A DNA stretch of 64,000 nt, taken from contig NZ_BDUD01000001.1 in NCBI RefSeq assembly GCF_003113895.1, forward strand, positions 1,525,821 to 1,589,820. The letters are read 5' to 3'. Shown here one piece after another: positions 7,495 to 15,474 of the stretch. The stretch is from Nostoc commune NIES-4072 (GTDB lineage: Bacteria; Cyanobacteriota; Cyanobacteriia; Cyanobacteriales; Nostocaceae). The position numbers and the translations under genes were made by a program. How positions within the stretch are numbered: the stretch's first letter is position 1; each line of letters begins with the position of its first letter. The notes beneath the pieces are model-generated. The model saw nothing but the letters and a program-made list of their open reading frames with translations, was not told where the DNA came from and searched no databases.

Positions 7495-7679
7495 TCATGG
7501 TTTGTAACCTACAGCTAGCACCACAGAAGCGGGAATTTCCACACCATTGTCCGTGGCATACTTTGATGCTCCGTCGATAATAGCATTCTCAATATTGCGC
7601 CGTTGCTCAAGGGTTTGCATTGCTAATATCGTGCCGAGACGCGCCGTACTCACAACAACCTTTGCCATCACATCTTCAG
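7495..7679 (-). pseudogene. class I SAM-dependent methyltransferase, 3' part (split gene)
   Basis: This segment encodes the C-terminal about 60 residues of a UbiE-type methyltransferase (EDVMAKVVV... NIENAIIDGASKY ... VEIPASVVLAVGYKP). The 5' part is at 12373-13015, separated by a 4.7-kb nested mobile element (7680-12372). Joining base 12373 to 7679 gives FSTP|EDVMAK in one frame and a 275-residue protein. An apparent ATG upstream of this part lies inside the group II intron and is not a real start. Confidence 0.85.
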
Positions 7680-7730
7680 TTGAGCCACTAGTAAACTCAA
7701 CGAGGTTGTCACCAACCCCGTTGGTCTTCA

Positions 7731-7764
7731 AAACCGGACGTGAGACTTTCACCTCATCCGGCTC
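7731..7764 (-). ncRNA. group II intron domain V (catalytic hairpin)
   Basis: A 34-nt hairpin: GAGCCGGATGAG, a GTGAAAGT internal and loop part, then CTCACGTCCGGTTTT. This is the most conserved part of bacterial group II introns and confirms orientation on the minus strand. Domain VI follows at about 7698-7725 (AACGGGGTTG, loop GTGA, CAACCTCGTT). Confidence 0.88.
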
Positions 7765-7783
7765 CTCAATGAATCGGCGCTTA

Positions 7784-9583
7784 TCATGCGTACTTCACAA
7801 CTGAACCATCTACAGTTGTCTTTTCATCGTGGCAGTGTCTGTGTAATATCTGGAGATTTTTATAATCGTCTTTACCTCCCAAACTTTTGGGGATTTTGTG
7901 GTCAATCTCCAGTACATCTTCCTCTCGAAAGTACATTCGGCAGTGGGTACACTTCCCTTTTTGTTTCTTTAAGAGTGTTGCTACTCTCGTAGTCGTTTCT
8001 GGGTGTTCTCCCATTCTTGAACTCCAGTAAATTAGGTTGCCATCATAAGGACTAGCTTCGCCTTTAACTTTCACATGCCGAATAATTTTTGTTTCCGCGT
8101 GTGACCGTAACCGCAACGGGTTTTTACCCTCTTGCCTGGTTGCGAATACCCAATTATCACCACCTATGGTTTGCCAATATTTCTTTGTTACCCATCCCCT
8201 GGATTTCTTGGGGTGGCGGTGTTGCGCCCAAGCCTTTAGCTTTGGATACATGAGATTATCTAGGTCAGCAAAGATAACCTTGCTTACTGATGTTGAATAG
8301 TAGTTAGACCATCCTGTTATTACCGGATTTAGTCGGCTGATTAACGCCATTTGTGGCGCTGCTTTATGGTCATCGATGATACTTGCTATTCGGTCGTAAT
8401 GTATCTTTTGCTTTTCCTTGCTTGGGGTGATGATTGTCTTGAAGCCTTGTTTTGAGTGGTATTTACCCACTTTCCACTGTCTTATGTTAAAACCAAGGAA
8501 GTTAAAACCTGGTTTTTCTGACCCATACTTATTTAAAGTGTGGGTTAGACGTGTTTTAGAAAGCTTCAATTCCAGACCCATGTCTATTAACCATTCAGAG
8601 ATTATCTCCCTGCATCTTTGGACAACGGTTATGTCTTTGTGGAGAATCACAAAGTCATCGGCATATCGGATAACTTGAGGGCTTCTGAACTTTGTACCTT
8701 TTTTGTGATACCAAGTTTCCCTCATGGTTTGAGACATTTCTGGGAATGCCTTATTTATCCGTTCTTCCATCCCGTGAAGGGCGATGTTAGCTAGTAGCGG
8801 AGAGATTACCCCACCCTGTGGCGTACCCTCAGATGTTGGAAACAACTGCTTACCATCCATTACCCCCGCTTTTAACCATGCTCGAATTTGTCGGCGGATG
8901 GTGGGAGATGTATTTAATTTTCTTAGCAGTGCTTCATGGTCGATGCGGTCGAAGCATTTTGCAATGTCGGCATCAAGCACAAATTTACTTTTCTGCACAA
9001 TTGCTTGGAATATTGCCTCTCTTGCATCATGACATGAGCGCCCAGGTCTGAACCCGTATGAGTTAGGCTCAAATCGTGCTTCCCATTCCGGCTCTAATGC
9101 CAGTTTGAACAGCGCTTGCAAGGCTCGGTCGTTCATTACGGGAATACCCAAAGGTCGTTTCTCATCCGTTCCTGGTTTGGGAATCCAAACCCGTCGTGTC
9201 GGTTTCACCTTTGACTTAGGTTTTATTTTTGTAACCAGTATCAAACGAGCTTCTGGGGATAGTGATTTAACACCGTCCACCCCTGCTGTCTTTTTGCCCT
9301 GGTTATCTTGTGTAACCCGACGAACCGATAGACACTTTGCTGCCCAGGAATTCATCAACGTCCTCTGGAGTCTGCGAAATGCTTTGACATCACCACGACG
9401 AGATGCTTTGTAAATTCGTTTTTGCAACTTAAAAACACGTCTTTCCAACTTACGCCAGTTGATGTGTTTCCATTCCACCATCGATTCATTACTCAAAACC
9501 GTTCTAATTGGGTTAGTCTTCAGGGGAAGAAAACCGTTTTTGTTAGGTTTAGGAGCAATTTGTCGTGTATTAGACTTTTGCAT
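7784..9583 (-). CDS. ltrA: group II intron-encoded protein (reverse transcriptase/maturase/HNH endonuclease)
   Basis: 599 residues, full length for the family. The order is an N-terminal RT-associated region, the reverse transcriptase with catalytic YADD (Tyr307-Asp310), maturase domain X, a basic linker, and a C-terminal HNH endonuclease. The HNH has a CTHC zinc knuckle and LEIDHKIPKSLGG near residues 535-590. It promotes splicing of its own intron and inserts it into DNA by target-primed reverse transcription. No frameshift or stop is visible, so it may be active. Confidence 0.95.
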   Translation of the reverse strand: MQKSNTRQIAPKPNKNGFLPLKTNPIRTVLSNESMVEWKHINWRKLERRVFKLQKRIYKASRRGDVKAFRRLQRTLMNSWAAKCLSVRRVTQDNQGKKTAGVDGVKSLSPEARLILVTKIKPKSKVKPTRRVWIPKPGTDEKRPLGIPVMNDRALQALFKLALEPEWEARFEPNSYGFRPGRSCHDAREAIFQAIVQKSKFVLDADIAKCFDRIDHEALLRKLNTSPTIRRQIRAWLKAGVMDGKQLFPTSEGTPQGGVISPLLANIALHGMEERINKAFPEMSQTMRETWYHKKGTKFRSPQVIRYADDFVILHKDITVVQRCREIISEWLIDMGLELKLSKTRLTHTLNKYGSEKPGFNFLGFNIRQWKVGKYHSKQGFKTIITPSKEKQKIHYDRIASIIDDHKAAPQMALISRLNPVITGWSNYYSTSVSKVIFADLDNLMYPKLKAWAQHRHPKKSRGWVTKKYWQTIGGDNWVFATRQEGKNPLRLRSHAETKIIRHVKVKGEASPYDGNLIYWSSRMGEHPETTTRVATLLKKQKGKCTHCRMYFREEDVLEIDHKIPKSLGGKDDYKNLQILHRHCHDEKTTVDGSVVKYA

Positions 9584-10203
9584 TGCTACTCATAACTTTA
9601 CACTCCAAATCACCGTAAGTCCGTCAGCATATCTCTGTCATTACAACAGAGCGTTCGCTTCTGACTAAATCTTTACTCTCGTTGCATACGGTTAGCACCT
9701 ACTCGGTTATCGACCTTACTGAGAGCAAACGAAAGGTTACTTCGTTCCGAATAACCATTGTTAGAACCTTTAGAATGATGCTATCCACCGGGTTTATTAG
9801 GAGTGCAACTGGTCAGGCGAGGAACTGCCAGCCCTTTATCCCTTACCTTTTGGCTCCAACGCATTAAGCCTTATTTCGCTGGTTCTTTATTACGATGGTT
9901 CGGCGCATCTTTGCTTTTGCTATTCATGGGTTCATGCTCGAAAGGGAACCAGCTTAGGCTGCCAGTTGTTCCTCCTTTTCATCCCGCTTTACGGATTGAT
10001 GGCTAGTCGCTACCGTAGGGATGATGCTGTTACCGTTGCACCTACGGAGAGGGACTTCTCCTTAATTTCTTTTGGAGTCACCCTCATGGTTATTCAGTTA
10101 TCATCTGAGAGAGATTAAAGTGCGAACTCAACCCAATGGGGTTATCTCTCAAATGTCACTCATCCCTGAATATTTCTATTCATTTCGAGTGAACGAATCG
10201 CAC

Positions 10204-10224
10204 CCGCGCACTAAAGTGACGCGG
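10204..10224 (-). ncRNA. IS right-end hairpin / putative omega-RNA 3' stem-loop
   Basis: On the minus strand CCGCG and CGCGG form the outer stem, with CAC/GTG inside and a TTTA loop. It begins 14 nt after the tnpB stop. In IS200/IS605 elements the right-end hairpin is recognised by the TnpA transposase, and the same region forms the 3' scaffold of the TnpB guide RNA. Only 12 nt of right end (TAGTGGCTCAA plus one base) lie beyond it, now displaced to 7679-7690 by the intron. Confidence 0.65.
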
Positions 10225-10237
10225 ATTCGGGCAAAGG

Positions 10238-11752
10238 TTATGATAACTTTTCGCGCTTTACCGCTATCTGGTTATCACTTTTGCCTTGTAAGTCGAACTG
10301 CTCTGAGGGTAAATGAGATAACCTACTTTCAGACGCGCTTACTTGTTCGCAGTTTATTCGATATTGCTGCCATGCCGACTTTAAGATTGACTCCAACCTT
10401 GGATACTCATATTGAGCATCCTGCAATGACAACTGATCCTCATTAACGTATCTACTCAGAAATGCACTAAAAATATCACGGTGCATAACAACTCCTGTCA
10501 CATCTCTATGAACCCGTTGGGATAGCGATTTTTTGATACGACTACCATCTAAATGAGTTTGAGAGAGTGCAGTTTTCTGAGTAGAAAAAGTTATGAATTG
10601 ACCACCAGCACTTTCAGCCTTGCGTTTCAATTCAGATTGTACAAATCCAGGTGATTTAGCAGAAATAGCCTTACCGTAGCGTTTCTGCCATCCTTTGACT
10701 GAGACTTTTTCCGTTTTAATTATGCTGCCATGCCTTAAAACCTCATTAACTACTTTACGGTTTTGAGACTTGGCATAAGAAGTTTTACGTCTTTCTAGTT
10801 CACGCTTCTTTTGAGCAACCTTTTTGTAGGATTTAGACTTGTTCCACCTGCGATTACCCTTTTTGACTTTGCCTTTTTTGGTAACTATTTTGCGTCCCTT
10901 TTTAGCTAAGAAATCTGGCTCATAATTGTCAGGATTATTAGCACGTTGGGAACGTTGCATTTTTTGTTGTAGTCTCGTTATCTCCTTCTGGAAGTTAGGG
11001 ACTTTATCAGCAAAGGGCAACAGTCCCGCTTGATTGTCACTTACAAAAGCGATGTTGGAGATATTAAGGTCTAAACCAATAGTACCTTCTAAAACATAAT
11101 TTTGTGGCTTTTGATGTGGTATCCCCTCGTTTATTATCTGGATAAACCAGCGACGTTTACCATTAATCTCTTTCCATAACAGACGAATGTATTTAACAGG
11201 TGAATTTAACCCATGCTGTATTACTGGATTAAATTTATCAATAATAGAGTTGAGTCTAAGTTTTCCCCAAACTACTTGATTATCTTTCCAGCGCAACCCT
11301 TGTTTGTTAGTCTTACCTTCAACAGACCTGAATCTATTAGAAGTTTTAAATCTAACTTTTTTGGCTAGTCCAAACAAAACTTTTTCACTAGCCCTAAAAG
11401 CGCGAGTGGCTATCGTCTGCTGAGTGTTTGAGTCTATTTTATCAGCAATCCATTTTGATTTATTACTAACTAACGTGGCATAAGCTTGTAATTCATAATC
11501 CGAATATCTATACAACTTTCTAGCTTCAGAGAACATATTAGAACGTTGTTTCTTTTGCTCTCTAGGTAACTTTCTAGCTGCTTGATAAATATCAGAATTT
11601 TTAACTAACTCCATCCTAGTCACCGCTTCATTTAGACAAGCATTGTATAGCTGTCTACTCGCTTGAAACCTAGCTAATAATTCTGATTCTTGCTTGCTGT
11701 CAACCACTAATGAAATTGTAGTTACGAAAGATGGAGTTTTGCTCTTAGCCAC
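10238..11752 (-). CDS. tnpB: RNA-guided endonuclease TnpB (IS200/IS605)
   Basis: 504 residues from a GTG at 11752, chosen because AGGAGGTG lies about 9 nt upstream; longer readings start inside the promoter region. RuvC-like catalytic residues are visible: Asp228 in GLDLN, Glu348 in TEKVS and Asp426 in MHRD. The usual four-cysteine zinc ribbon between the second and third residues is degenerate here (SQTHLDGSRIKKSLSQRVHRD, no CxxC pairs). TnpB uses an omega-RNA made from the element's right end to cut DNA at the donor joint. It is divergent from tnpA. Confidence 0.92.
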   Translation of the reverse strand: MAKSKTPSFVTTISLVVDSKQESELLARFQASRQLYNACLNEAVTRMELVKNSDIYQAARKLPREQKKQRSNMFSEARKLYRYSDYELQAYATLVSNKSKWIADKIDSNTQQTIATRAFRASEKVLFGLAKKVRFKTSNRFRSVEGKTNKQGLRWKDNQVVWGKLRLNSIIDKFNPVIQHGLNSPVKYIRLLWKEINGKRRWFIQIINEGIPHQKPQNYVLEGTIGLDLNISNIAFVSDNQAGLLPFADKVPNFQKEITRLQQKMQRSQRANNPDNYEPDFLAKKGRKIVTKKGKVKKGNRRWNKSKSYKKVAQKKRELERRKTSYAKSQNRKVVNEVLRHGSIIKTEKVSVKGWQKRYGKAISAKSPGFVQSELKRKAESAGGQFITFSTQKTALSQTHLDGSRIKKSLSQRVHRDVTGVVMHRDIFSAFLSRYVNEDQLSLQDAQYEYPRLESILKSAWQQYRINCEQVSASESRLSHLPSEQFDLQGKSDNQIAVKREKLS

Positions 11753-11842
11753 TGTTTTATCACCTCCTAAATTTTGTATAAGGCTCATTGCTATATACAA
11801 TACACTGTTGTAATATATCTGTCAACACAATCATGTAAGGTG

Positions 11843-12250
11843 ATGAAAAAATCTAGCAGGGAGTACAGGCATAACAATCATTCGGTAGGGTCTGCTACTG
11901 TGCATTTAATCTGGATACCCAAGAGAAGAAAACCCGTTTTAGTTGGAGACATTAAATTTCGTCTTAGCCAAATAATGACTGAGGTTGCAAATGAAAAAGG
12001 ATGGATAATTAAATGCTTAGAGATTGCACCTGACCATGTTCATGCTTTGGTGGAATATGACCCCAGCACACCAATTAATTCAATTGTTAAAGCTTTCAAA
12101 GGTCGCTCATCCAGATATTTAAGACAAGAGTTTCCACAATTACTTAAACTTCCTACTTTGTGGACTCACTCGTATTACTACGATTCAACGGGAAAAATTT
12201 CATCTGCAATTATTGAGAAATACATTAATGACCCACATCACTACAAATAA
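11843..12250 (+). CDS. tnpA: IS200-type Y1 transposase TnpA
   Basis: 135 residues from the ATG at 11843 with AAGGTG just upstream. The HUH motif is DHVHALVEY (His65, His67) and the probable nucleophile is Tyr127 in IEKYIND. Y1 transposases excise and insert single-stranded circles at hairpin-marked ends without target duplication. The start lies 90 bp from the divergent tnpB start, so the two share a promoter region. The ORF looks intact. Confidence 0.93.
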   Translation: MKKSSREYRHNNHSVGSATVHLIWIPKRRKPVLVGDIKFRLSQIMTEVANEKGWIIKCLEIAPDHVHALVEYDPSTPINSIVKAFKGRSSRYLRQEFPQLLKLPTLWTHSYYYDSTGKISSAIIEKYINDPHHYK

Positions 12251-12372
12251 CCACTGCGGATAAATCCGCATGAGTCAGGTTTCCGCCACGATATAAATAA
12301 CGTAGGTAGTTCAATTCATTTATTTTCTTGAACTACCTACTTCGTGGCTACCACCTTTCCCACGCTATTTAG
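12251..12372. repeat. IS left end with subterminal hairpins
   Basis: Three inverted repeats lie in a row: TGCGGA-TAAA-TCCGCA (12255-12270) right after the tnpA stop, a 13-bp perfect stem GTAGGTAGTTCAA/TTGAACTACCTAC (12302-12314 with 12328-12340), and a CGTGG/CCACG stem near the tip. The first may double as the tnpA terminator; the others are candidate TnpA recognition hairpins. Confidence 0.7.
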
Positions 12373-13015
12373 GTGTAGAGAAAGTCCACTTTATAGGCAA
12401 TTCAGTGACAGACACCTCAGTGAATCCCTCGGCGCTCAAGACCCTTTCACATTCGCCTCTTTCGCCGAAGCGGAACAAAGGCGGCCCCGAAGGTAGATCC
12501 AGATCCATGTTGCCATAAGTCTGCACCGAACCCAGTATAAGAGCCATAAACGGATTGCACGTTGGCGGTGTCCAACAGGTAAAGGCATATCGCCCTCCCG
12601 GTTTGAGTACGCGAAAGGATTCAGCGATCGCTCTTTCTGGGTTGGGGAAATGGAGGATGCTCAAGCTACAAACAACCGCCTCAAACTGGCCCGACTCAAA
12701 AGGAAGGTTCTCAGCATCTCCGTTATAAAATGATGCTTGAGGGCATCGCACTCTGGCAATAGCCACCATATTCTCTGCATAGTCCAATCCTGTTACTATG
12801 GCCTCCCGCTTTAATGCTGCGGCACTAAGCCAGCCAGTCCCGCAAGCTACATCGAGCAACCTCAAACCAGATGCTCCTACAGCATCCAATATGGCTTCAT
12901 CCACCTGAGAAGTTACAGTAGCGATCGCTTCATCATATTTTTGGGCTACGAGAGAAAATCTGTCACGCTCGAACTGTTTGAATGGATCATGAACACTGGT
13001 CGAGTCATCTGTCAT
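12373..13015 (-). pseudogene. class I SAM-dependent methyltransferase, 5' part (split gene)
   Basis: The 5' part encodes about 215 residues with the SAM-binding motif LLDVACGTGWLS (about residues 52-63), the acidic YAENM loop, NGDAENLPFESG and CSLSILHFPNPERA. It then runs into the IS element and stops at a TAG seven bases later. With 7495-7679 appended it becomes a complete UbiE-type enzyme. The ATG at 13015 lies 3 bp after the upstream oxidoreductase stop, so the two form an operon. Substrate unknown. Without the last 60 residues it is probably inactive. Confidence 0.87.
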
Positions 13016-15044: not shown

Positions 15045-15474
15045 GGGAGAGAGCAGGACATAAGCCGGGTTCTGTTCTCTTGCGAGGGCAGTTATCTATC
15101 TGGGACGCTTGTTACCAAACGCCTCTAGCGGCTCTCATTGAGCGGAACTGGTAAAAGACCAACCGTAGTTCCTATCGCCTTGCTCCCAACCGGGGTTTAC
15201 CGAGCCAGCACCTCTCGATACTGCTGGTGCGCTCTTACCGCACCTTTGCACCCTTACCAAATTTAGTTAAGAGTTATGAGTGATGAGTTAAAAGTTAATA
15301 ATTCCTAACTCCTAACTTCTAACTCCTAACTTTTTTGGCGGTATCTTTCTGTGGCACTATCCTCACGATCGCTCGCACTGGACGTTATCCAGCAAGTTTG
15401 GTCTTTCGGGAGTCCGGACTTTCCTCAAACCAGTAACTATGACTGATCTGCAACCGCCTGCGCCTACTCTCTCC
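15045..15474 (-). ncRNA. rnpB: RNase P RNA with an internal STRR
   Basis: The minus strand carries the bacterial type A RNase P RNA signatures: the 5' region with GAGGAAAGTCCGGACTCCC and the 3' region ending AAACCCGGCTTATG (read as AGAACCCGGCTTATGTCCTG). The terminal GAGAG/CTCTC ends pair as P1. About 70 nt of AACTCCT-type tandem repeat (15263-15335) is inserted in a peripheral stem. Such STRRs in rnpB are a known trait of heterocystous cyanobacteria. Ends are placed by P1 pairing and are accurate to a few bases. Confidence 0.95.

Follow-up and report, generated by a model that had tools for sequence, protein, structure and literature searches.

A group II intron between the hairpin and the guide of a predicted TnpB omega-RNA in Nostoc commune, and related introns behind IS200/IS605 end hairpins

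The stretch analyzed here, referred to as the window, consists of 64,000 nucleotides (nt) from Nostoc commune NIES-4072 (contig NZ_BDUD01000001.1). It contains a methyltransferase gene interrupted by an insertion sequence (IS) of the IS200/IS605 group, and a group II intron lies within the right end of this element. Related introns have been found directly behind IS200/IS605 end hairpins elsewhere in this genome and in other strains, and the exon-binding sites (EBS1 and EBS2) of these introns covary with the intron-binding sites (IBS1 and IBS2) in the flanks that they follow. Coordinates are positions in the window, and the element is read on the minus strand. In this direction, tnpB is followed by GAAT, the right-end hairpin (10224-10204), the intron, which begins with GTGCG at 10203, the sequence AGTGGCTCAA (7689-7680), and the remainder of the host gene. 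The same order of parts had been given in a preliminary description of the locus and is confirmed here. The features are as follows.

12373..13015, minus strand: methyltransferase gene, 5' part
7680..12372, minus strand: complete IS605-type element of the IS200/IS605 group, 4693 bp with the intron and 2179 bp after its subtraction, inside the methyltransferase gene
11774..12250, plus strand: tnpA, Y1 HUH transposase of 158 amino acids (aa) (PF01797; NF033573, 131.3 bits, cut-off 55)
10238..11800, minus strand: tnpB, 520 aa from TTG, start uncertain (NF040570, 88 bits, cut-off 100)
10225..10228, minus strand: GAAT directly 5' of the hairpin, with the letters and place of the IS608 right guide G_R
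10204..10224, minus strand: hairpin of the right end, CCGCGTCACTTTAGTGCGCGG, corresponding to the last stem-loop of the predicted omega-RNA
10212-10216, minus strand: IBS2, the loop region of the hairpin
10204-10209, minus strand: IBS1, the 3' arm of the hairpin
7690..10203, minus strand: group II intron, 2514 nt, GTGCG...GTTTACT, delimited by domains 5 and 6 (D5/D6), the common ends of its copies, intron-free right ends, and reading frames
9885..9889, minus strand: EBS2, TAAAG, intron positions 315-319, covarying with 5' exon positions -13 to -9
9817..9822, minus strand: EBS1, CCTCGC, intron positions 382-387, covarying with 5' exon positions -6 to -1
7784..9583, minus strand: intron-encoded protein (IEP) of 599 aa with reverse transcriptase (RT), maturase (X), and HNH endonuclease domains
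7680..7689, minus strand: part of the right end beyond the intron, AGTGGCTCAA, whose final TCAA has the letters of IS608 C_R
7660..7679, minus strand: predicted guide
7495..7679, minus strand: methyltransferase gene, 3' part

The limits of the element previously described (7680-12372) are upheld by related genomes. Matches were present in 17 other genomes; 11 loci of relatives were examined, and in all of them the methyltransferase gene is uninterrupted. In seven of them CTCTACAC is joined to CTGA with nothing between, and the remaining four are uninterrupted with diverged bases at the joint. Since the joint is exact in the seven loci, the element was inserted without target duplication and ends in TCAA. 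The lack of a duplication, the TCAA right end, and the subterminal hairpin are traits of the IS200/IS605 group; a left-end hairpin has been read by eye only. The cleavage and guide tetranucleotides of IS608 are reported as TTAC, TCAA, AAAG, and GAAT (excerpt of PMC5934647). A second full-length copy of the element was not found in the N. commune genome.

The genes tnpA and tnpB run in opposite directions, and both had been described as intact. This holds for tnpA, which passes its model, while tnpB is probably, not certainly, intact. Its score of 88 bits falls below the cut-off of 100, with protein positions 28-446 aligned to positions 2-383 of the 389 in NF040570, and two invariant Asp residues are present in a four-row alignment. 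The omega-RNA scaffold is reported to end at the right end of such elements, where the guide then follows (excerpt of PMC10278001). By this rule, the predicted guide is the host gene sequence CTGAAGATGTGATGGCAAAG, and the predicted target of the window TnpB is CTGAAGATG. The last 128 nt up to 10203 fold with a z-score of -3.04. The intron, placed in the sense orientation of tnpB, parts the omega-RNA hairpin from the last right-end bases and the guide, in agreement with the preliminary description.

The intron has group II D5/D6 by two Rfam models, RF00029 at 7691-7766 (53.9 bits, gathering threshold 40) and RF04357 at 7727-7767 (62.4 bits, gathering threshold 53). Its IEP scores 324.6 bits against TIGR04416 (cut-off 300) and contains the RVT_1, GIIM, and HNH domains. 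The consensus of group II intron 5' ends is GUGYG, which the GTGCG of this intron fits, and the exact ends are common to the copies. The 5' boundary at 10203 stands as first given, but the 3' boundary, previously set at 7691, is one base off. Intron-free right ends in Nostoc read as the hairpin followed directly by AGTGTCAA, without an extra T, and three interrupted frames (locus L001 in the own genome, Nostoc mirabile CHAB 5784, and Nostoc KVJ20) are open only with this T counted as intronic. As a result, the intron spans 7690-10203, and 10 nt of the right end, not the 12 nt first reported, lie beyond it. Splicing would rejoin scaffold, TCAA, and guide, as had been suggested; judged from intron-free right ends and the three frames, it would restore the native scaffold-guide junction exactly.

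Five copies of the intron are present in the genome, the window included. Four lie behind an IS200/IS605 end hairpin and one behind a look-alike. The four copies outside the window match the whole 2513-nt query at a displayed identity of 100%, with the score of one a little lower, and their start and stop bases are common. Three of them are mini-units made of TTAC, an identical 45-nt stretch ending in the hairpin CCCTGTCTCTTTAGAGCAGGG, the intron, and AGTGTCAA, with differing DNA beyond. The hairpin is preceded by AAAG in the mini-units and by GAAT in the window, in Nostoc 210A, in Nostoc CHAB 5715 and, by eye, in 24 of 37 intron-free rows. With two differences, the 45-nt stretch is the left end of an element in genome G069 that carries a TnpB-like open reading frame (ORF) of 394 aa. 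For one mini-unit, the bare pre-insertion site, CAATATCTTAC joined to GCAAACC, is found in genome G076; for another, the relatives G059 and G004 read AATTAG joined to TTCTGGG. The look-alike target of the remaining copy (L001) is inside a reading frame. In genome G065 (L223), a single hairpin resembling a left end is, by eye, joined directly to AGTGTCAA with no intron, and an intron-free unit of the single-hairpin kind may thus exist elsewhere.

The preliminary description had proposed that further IS copies be searched for this intron at the equivalent hairpin, and introns at this kind of hairpin occur in several strains. The genome_contigs collection was scanned for exact matches to the first 30 bases of the intron, a query that held no exon. 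The scan gave 17 matches, spread over 15 loci whose titles all name Nostoc or Desmonostoc, and 10 of these matches lie immediately behind a hairpin with a stem of 6 bp or longer whose last base is at position -1 or -2. In Nostoc CHAB 5715 and Nostoc 210A, a TnpB element likewise has its right end divided by the intron, with AGTGTCAA on the far side; TnpB has 461 aa and scores 158.7 bits in the former, and has 412 aa and scores 262.6 bits in the latter (cut-off 100). These two TnpBs are 18% and 26% identical to that of the window, and in both elements the stop codon of tnpB falls within the loop of the hairpin, 7 nt upstream of the intron. L203 shows the hairpin letters of 210A in a right end that lacks the intron, and a 403-codon ORF ends 34 nt upstream of it. 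In Desmonostoc HA4340-LM1, the ORFs upstream of the intron resemble, by eye, a broken TnpB.

Other arrangements accompany these. Three introns are in tandem in 210A, and two of the tandem junctions, which are poorly paired, look like recombination products. At 3576-10871 of L039 (G003:C1:953575-960869), a single right-end hairpin is followed by three head-to-tail introns; the second of these is cut short at 2264, and the inner junctions do not fit EBS pairing. In KVJ20 (L042/L090), a related intron lies in the apparent RT gene of another group II intron and is in frame across the joint. In NIES-2108 (L083/L110, L107), 48 nt of the intron 5' end and, directly after them, an inverted copy of the first intron bases follow a hairpin, and inverted intron 5' ends are also seen in G075. 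In XA010 (L104/L092), a lineage intron lies behind the hairpin ACCCAGACATTTAATCTGGGT, to which no IS has been assigned; its EBS1 and EBS2 match that hairpin.

The pairing between introns and hairpins has been examined by covariation. EBS1 was located by a scan over 48 introns (0 of 2000 permutations) and EBS2 by eye. From 64 junctions, 15 were dropped (those with less than 700 nt of intron sequence or, in L059, with a replaced first base), leaving 49; L110, L055, L056, and L103, in which domain 1 is deleted or absent, were also dropped, which left 15 + 30 rows before identical rows were merged. Within the lineage, EBS1 and IBS1 form 57 of 72 possible pairs, compared with 45.0 ± 3.1 after shuffling, a value reached in 1 of 5000 shuffles. 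With one base of slack the count is 61 against 55.0 ± 2.1 (13 of 5000), and for EBS2 and IBS2 it is 45 of 50 against 30.9 ± 3.5 (1 of 5000). The other introns pair at 107 of 162 positions for EBS1 and 77 of 130 for EBS2, each reached in 0 of 5000 shuffles. The EBS1 sequences change with their hairpins: CCUCGC faces GCGGGG in 210A, CCUCGG faces CCGGGG in Desmonostoc, ACCCAG faces CUGGGU in XA010, and CUCAG faces CUGAG in CHAB 5715. In the own genome, the three kinds of filled site pair at 10 of 11 positions and 13 empty right ends (one pattern) at 7-9 of 11, a small margin in which the three mini-units count as one kind.

The hairpins themselves are also enriched. Among the 21 distinct 5' flanks (25 places) that represent the lineage, 13 have a junction hairpin with a stem of 6 bp or longer whose last base is at -1 or -2, and in 11 the stem reaches 7 bp or more. 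Introns that are more distant or gave short matches contribute 38 sites, 2 of which have a stem of the latter length (Fisher p 6e-5). The fetched set consists of 40 + 40 regions hand-picked from longer lists, so that the contrast of 21 with 38 is not one of random samples. Stem length also differs between the two groups (Mann-Whitney p 0.0018). One of the 38, L120, resembles a right end by eye and was scored low by the stem finder.

Taken together, we consider it likely that this lineage of group II introns retrohomes into IS200/IS605 end hairpins, and hence into omega-RNA genes, and that it also travels as cargo. The end hairpins would serve as a multi-copy homing site for these Nostoc introns, with EBS1 pairing to the 3' arm of the hairpin and EBS2 to its loop. 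Reverse splicing would then take place directly behind the hairpin and, in right ends, before the terminal AGTGTCAA. In tnpB-bearing elements, this insertion point would coincide with the boundary of omega-RNA scaffold and guide.

Several observations weigh against this proposal. A hairpin of 6 bp or longer with its last base at -1 or -2 is missing at 7 of the 17 exact-end matches, and a junction hairpin of this minimum length is missing at 8 of the 21 lineage sites; these eight comprise two protein frames, the RT gene of another intron, two tandem junctions, and three unassigned sites. The EBS windows were tested on the same data that were used to locate them. Some of the sites in KVJ20, G019, and XA010 are left-end or unassigned hairpins, so that the end hairpins of IS elements, and not omega-RNA genes in themselves, are the target. 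The phenomenon is local as far as seen, since the pattern of a filled right end, which misses hairpins with other loops, is found in 2 of 386 cyanobacterial genomes, both of this genus (6 genus genomes sampled; control 0). By comparison, the intron-free right-end pattern is found in 50 of 53 genus genomes, with a few hits (13) for the reversed-pattern control and with some matches that are not IS ends. Single-site hairpins are weakly significant, with shuffle p values of 0.003-0.196 over 13 sites and 0.063 for the window, and it is recurrence and EBS/IBS covariation that carry the argument.

The same evidence bears on the simpler idea that a retrohoming intron with an ordinary target landed in an IS by chance, without any particular tie to TnpB elements. 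Other mobile DNA is known to harbor group II introns, as ISRm2011-2 does with RmInt1 (excerpt of PMC4238363), and both the own-genome copy in an ordinary reading frame and the eight hairpin-less sites fit such an event. However, the recurrence at IS end hairpins in several strains, next to differing TnpBs and differing hairpins and with matching EBS changes, makes chance very improbable.

The introns may also have spread mainly within units mobilized by TnpA, as a group II counterpart of the IStrons, with retrohoming in a minor role. The three own-genome mini-units, in which TTAC and a left-end foot precede the hairpin, the intron, and AGTGTCAA between different flanks, are what passive transport would produce, as is the G076 allele with its bare TTAC. 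No intron-free mini-unit was found in the own genome with two patterns. In G019 (L055/L056), an identical 2067-nt unit is present at two places with different flanks and consists of TCAT, a left-end-like hairpin, a 913-nt intron without an ORF, a remainder that resembles tnpB by eye, and a right end followed by TCAA. In this one strain, the intron moved inside a unit of the IS200/IS605 type. Two places in KVJ20 carry an intron fragment of 86 nt behind a hairpin preceded by TTAC and AAAG, the letters of a left end. Such transport nevertheless leaves the EBS/IBS covariation, the insertions in reading frames, and the right ends of distantly related TnpB elements unexplained, and as the main route it is rather unlikely. 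Within the preferred reading, in which the introns home to end hairpins, those behind left-end hairpins would ride as cargo when the element moves, as the G019 unit suggests.

Insertion at the scaffold-guide boundary spares the TnpA and TnpB proteins and splits the guide RNA. Unspliced RNA should not hold the host guide in the working position, and splicing would restore that position. Because splicing would restore the native junction exactly, TnpB activity from the window locus probably needs it. A gating of TnpB by splicing is plausible from this anatomy, and the chances that a strong dependence really exists are evenly balanced. The preliminary description had extended the dependence to TnpA mobility, which does not follow. 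The tnpA gene is uninterrupted and on the other strand, IS200/IS605 transposition acts on DNA, and whatever happens to the RNA, 2.5 kb of DNA continue to separate the TCAA cleavage site from the hairpin. As DNA, a right end that contains the intron probably does not allow normal cleavage of the element, and immobilization is more likely than splicing-controlled mobility. The mini-units would be evidence against immobilization, provided that they already contained the intron when they moved.

Two further points count on the negative side. A hairpin that carries IBS1 and IBS2 could hinder splicing. The ISDra2 omega-RNA is described as pairing its last bases with the scaffold (excerpt of PMC10097598), and a corresponding scaffold pseudoknot across the intron was looked for among 5-nt complements; none of 20 right ends has a 5-nt complement of its tail 70-220 nt upstream (chance about 0.09 per end).

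The intron might also be a pure inactivator, which breaks the right end and the omega-RNA, splices inefficiently, and gates nothing. This alternative departs from homing into end hairpins in the splicing step alone, so the two are not exclusive, and it is a possibility to be taken seriously, although short of even. RmInt1 is reported to splice poorly and to limit the spread of its host IS (excerpt of PMC4238363), and here too IBS1 and IBS2 are buried in a hairpin. The exact restoration of the junction, the kept EBS1/IBS1 and EBS2/IBS2 pairings, and the open frames of the IEP, tnpA, and probably tnpB argue against this alternative, and these features also fit a recent insertion.

Similar associations have been described in other systems. 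RmInt1 in ISRm2011-2 of Sinorhizobium meliloti is likewise a mobile group II intron inside an IS, with splicing tied to the IS; it interrupts the transposase gene of an IS630-Tc1 element (excerpt of PMC4238363). The Nostoc intron, on the other hand, lies outside all proteins, where omega-RNA scaffold and guide meet in a TnpB element, and has the end hairpin as its target. The IStrons (CdISt1 and others) also join a self-splicing intron to an IS200/IS605 element with tnpA/tnpB; their intron belongs to group I, is placed at the 5' end, and is fused with the IS (excerpt of PMC4227781). In contrast, the Nostoc intron is a group II retroelement inside the right end, and its splicing would remove the intron alone and leave the element. 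It has group II D5/D6 and an RT, no group I family is among the three Rfam matches of the window above the gathering threshold, and it ends inside the right end with tnpA and tnpB outside. Elsewhere in the window, a class A bacterial RNase P RNA is found at 15046-15470 (249.8 bits).

Group IIC introns are not known to use EBS2 or to carry an endonuclease domain. The Nostoc lineage differs from them in the use of both EBS1 and EBS2 (45 of 50 pairs for the latter), in an IEP with HNH, and in having an IS200/IS605 end as its hairpin. Insertion directly behind a stem-loop, seen at 13 of the 21 lineage sites and absent at the other 8, is shared with group IIC introns, for which a stem-loop upstream of the site is reported (excerpt of PMC7923331) and which are found behind terminators and attC sites. 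In Pseudomonas putida, group II introns are located at short palindromes, two of nine at repetitive extragenic palindromic (REP) sequences (excerpt of PMC1525189), with no TnpB or omega-RNA involved. Among the papers listed in the literature searched, mostly without subscription literature, none was recognized as describing a group II intron at an IS200/IS605 end hairpin.

A closer, two-way partnership can also be imagined, in which group II introns specialized for omega-RNA genes use the TnpB transposon as a vehicle and multi-copy home, and TnpB is armed only after splicing. We regard this as doubtful. If it were true, nuclease activity, element retention, and intron copy number would be coupled, and unspliced RNA would offer the 5' end of the intron as a guide.

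At these loci, two RNA-based mobile systems meet at the point where the programmable part of a guide RNA begins. The intron is targeted by base pairing, and its natural target would be an end hairpin expected to be needed by TnpA as DNA and by TnpB as RNA. Three strains with distantly related TnpBs provide natural guide RNAs whose genes are split. In group I IStrons, the intron and the guide RNA reportedly compete for one transcript, according to a 2024 study. With the Nostoc loci, the sharing of one transcript by introns and transposon guide RNAs becomes directly testable.

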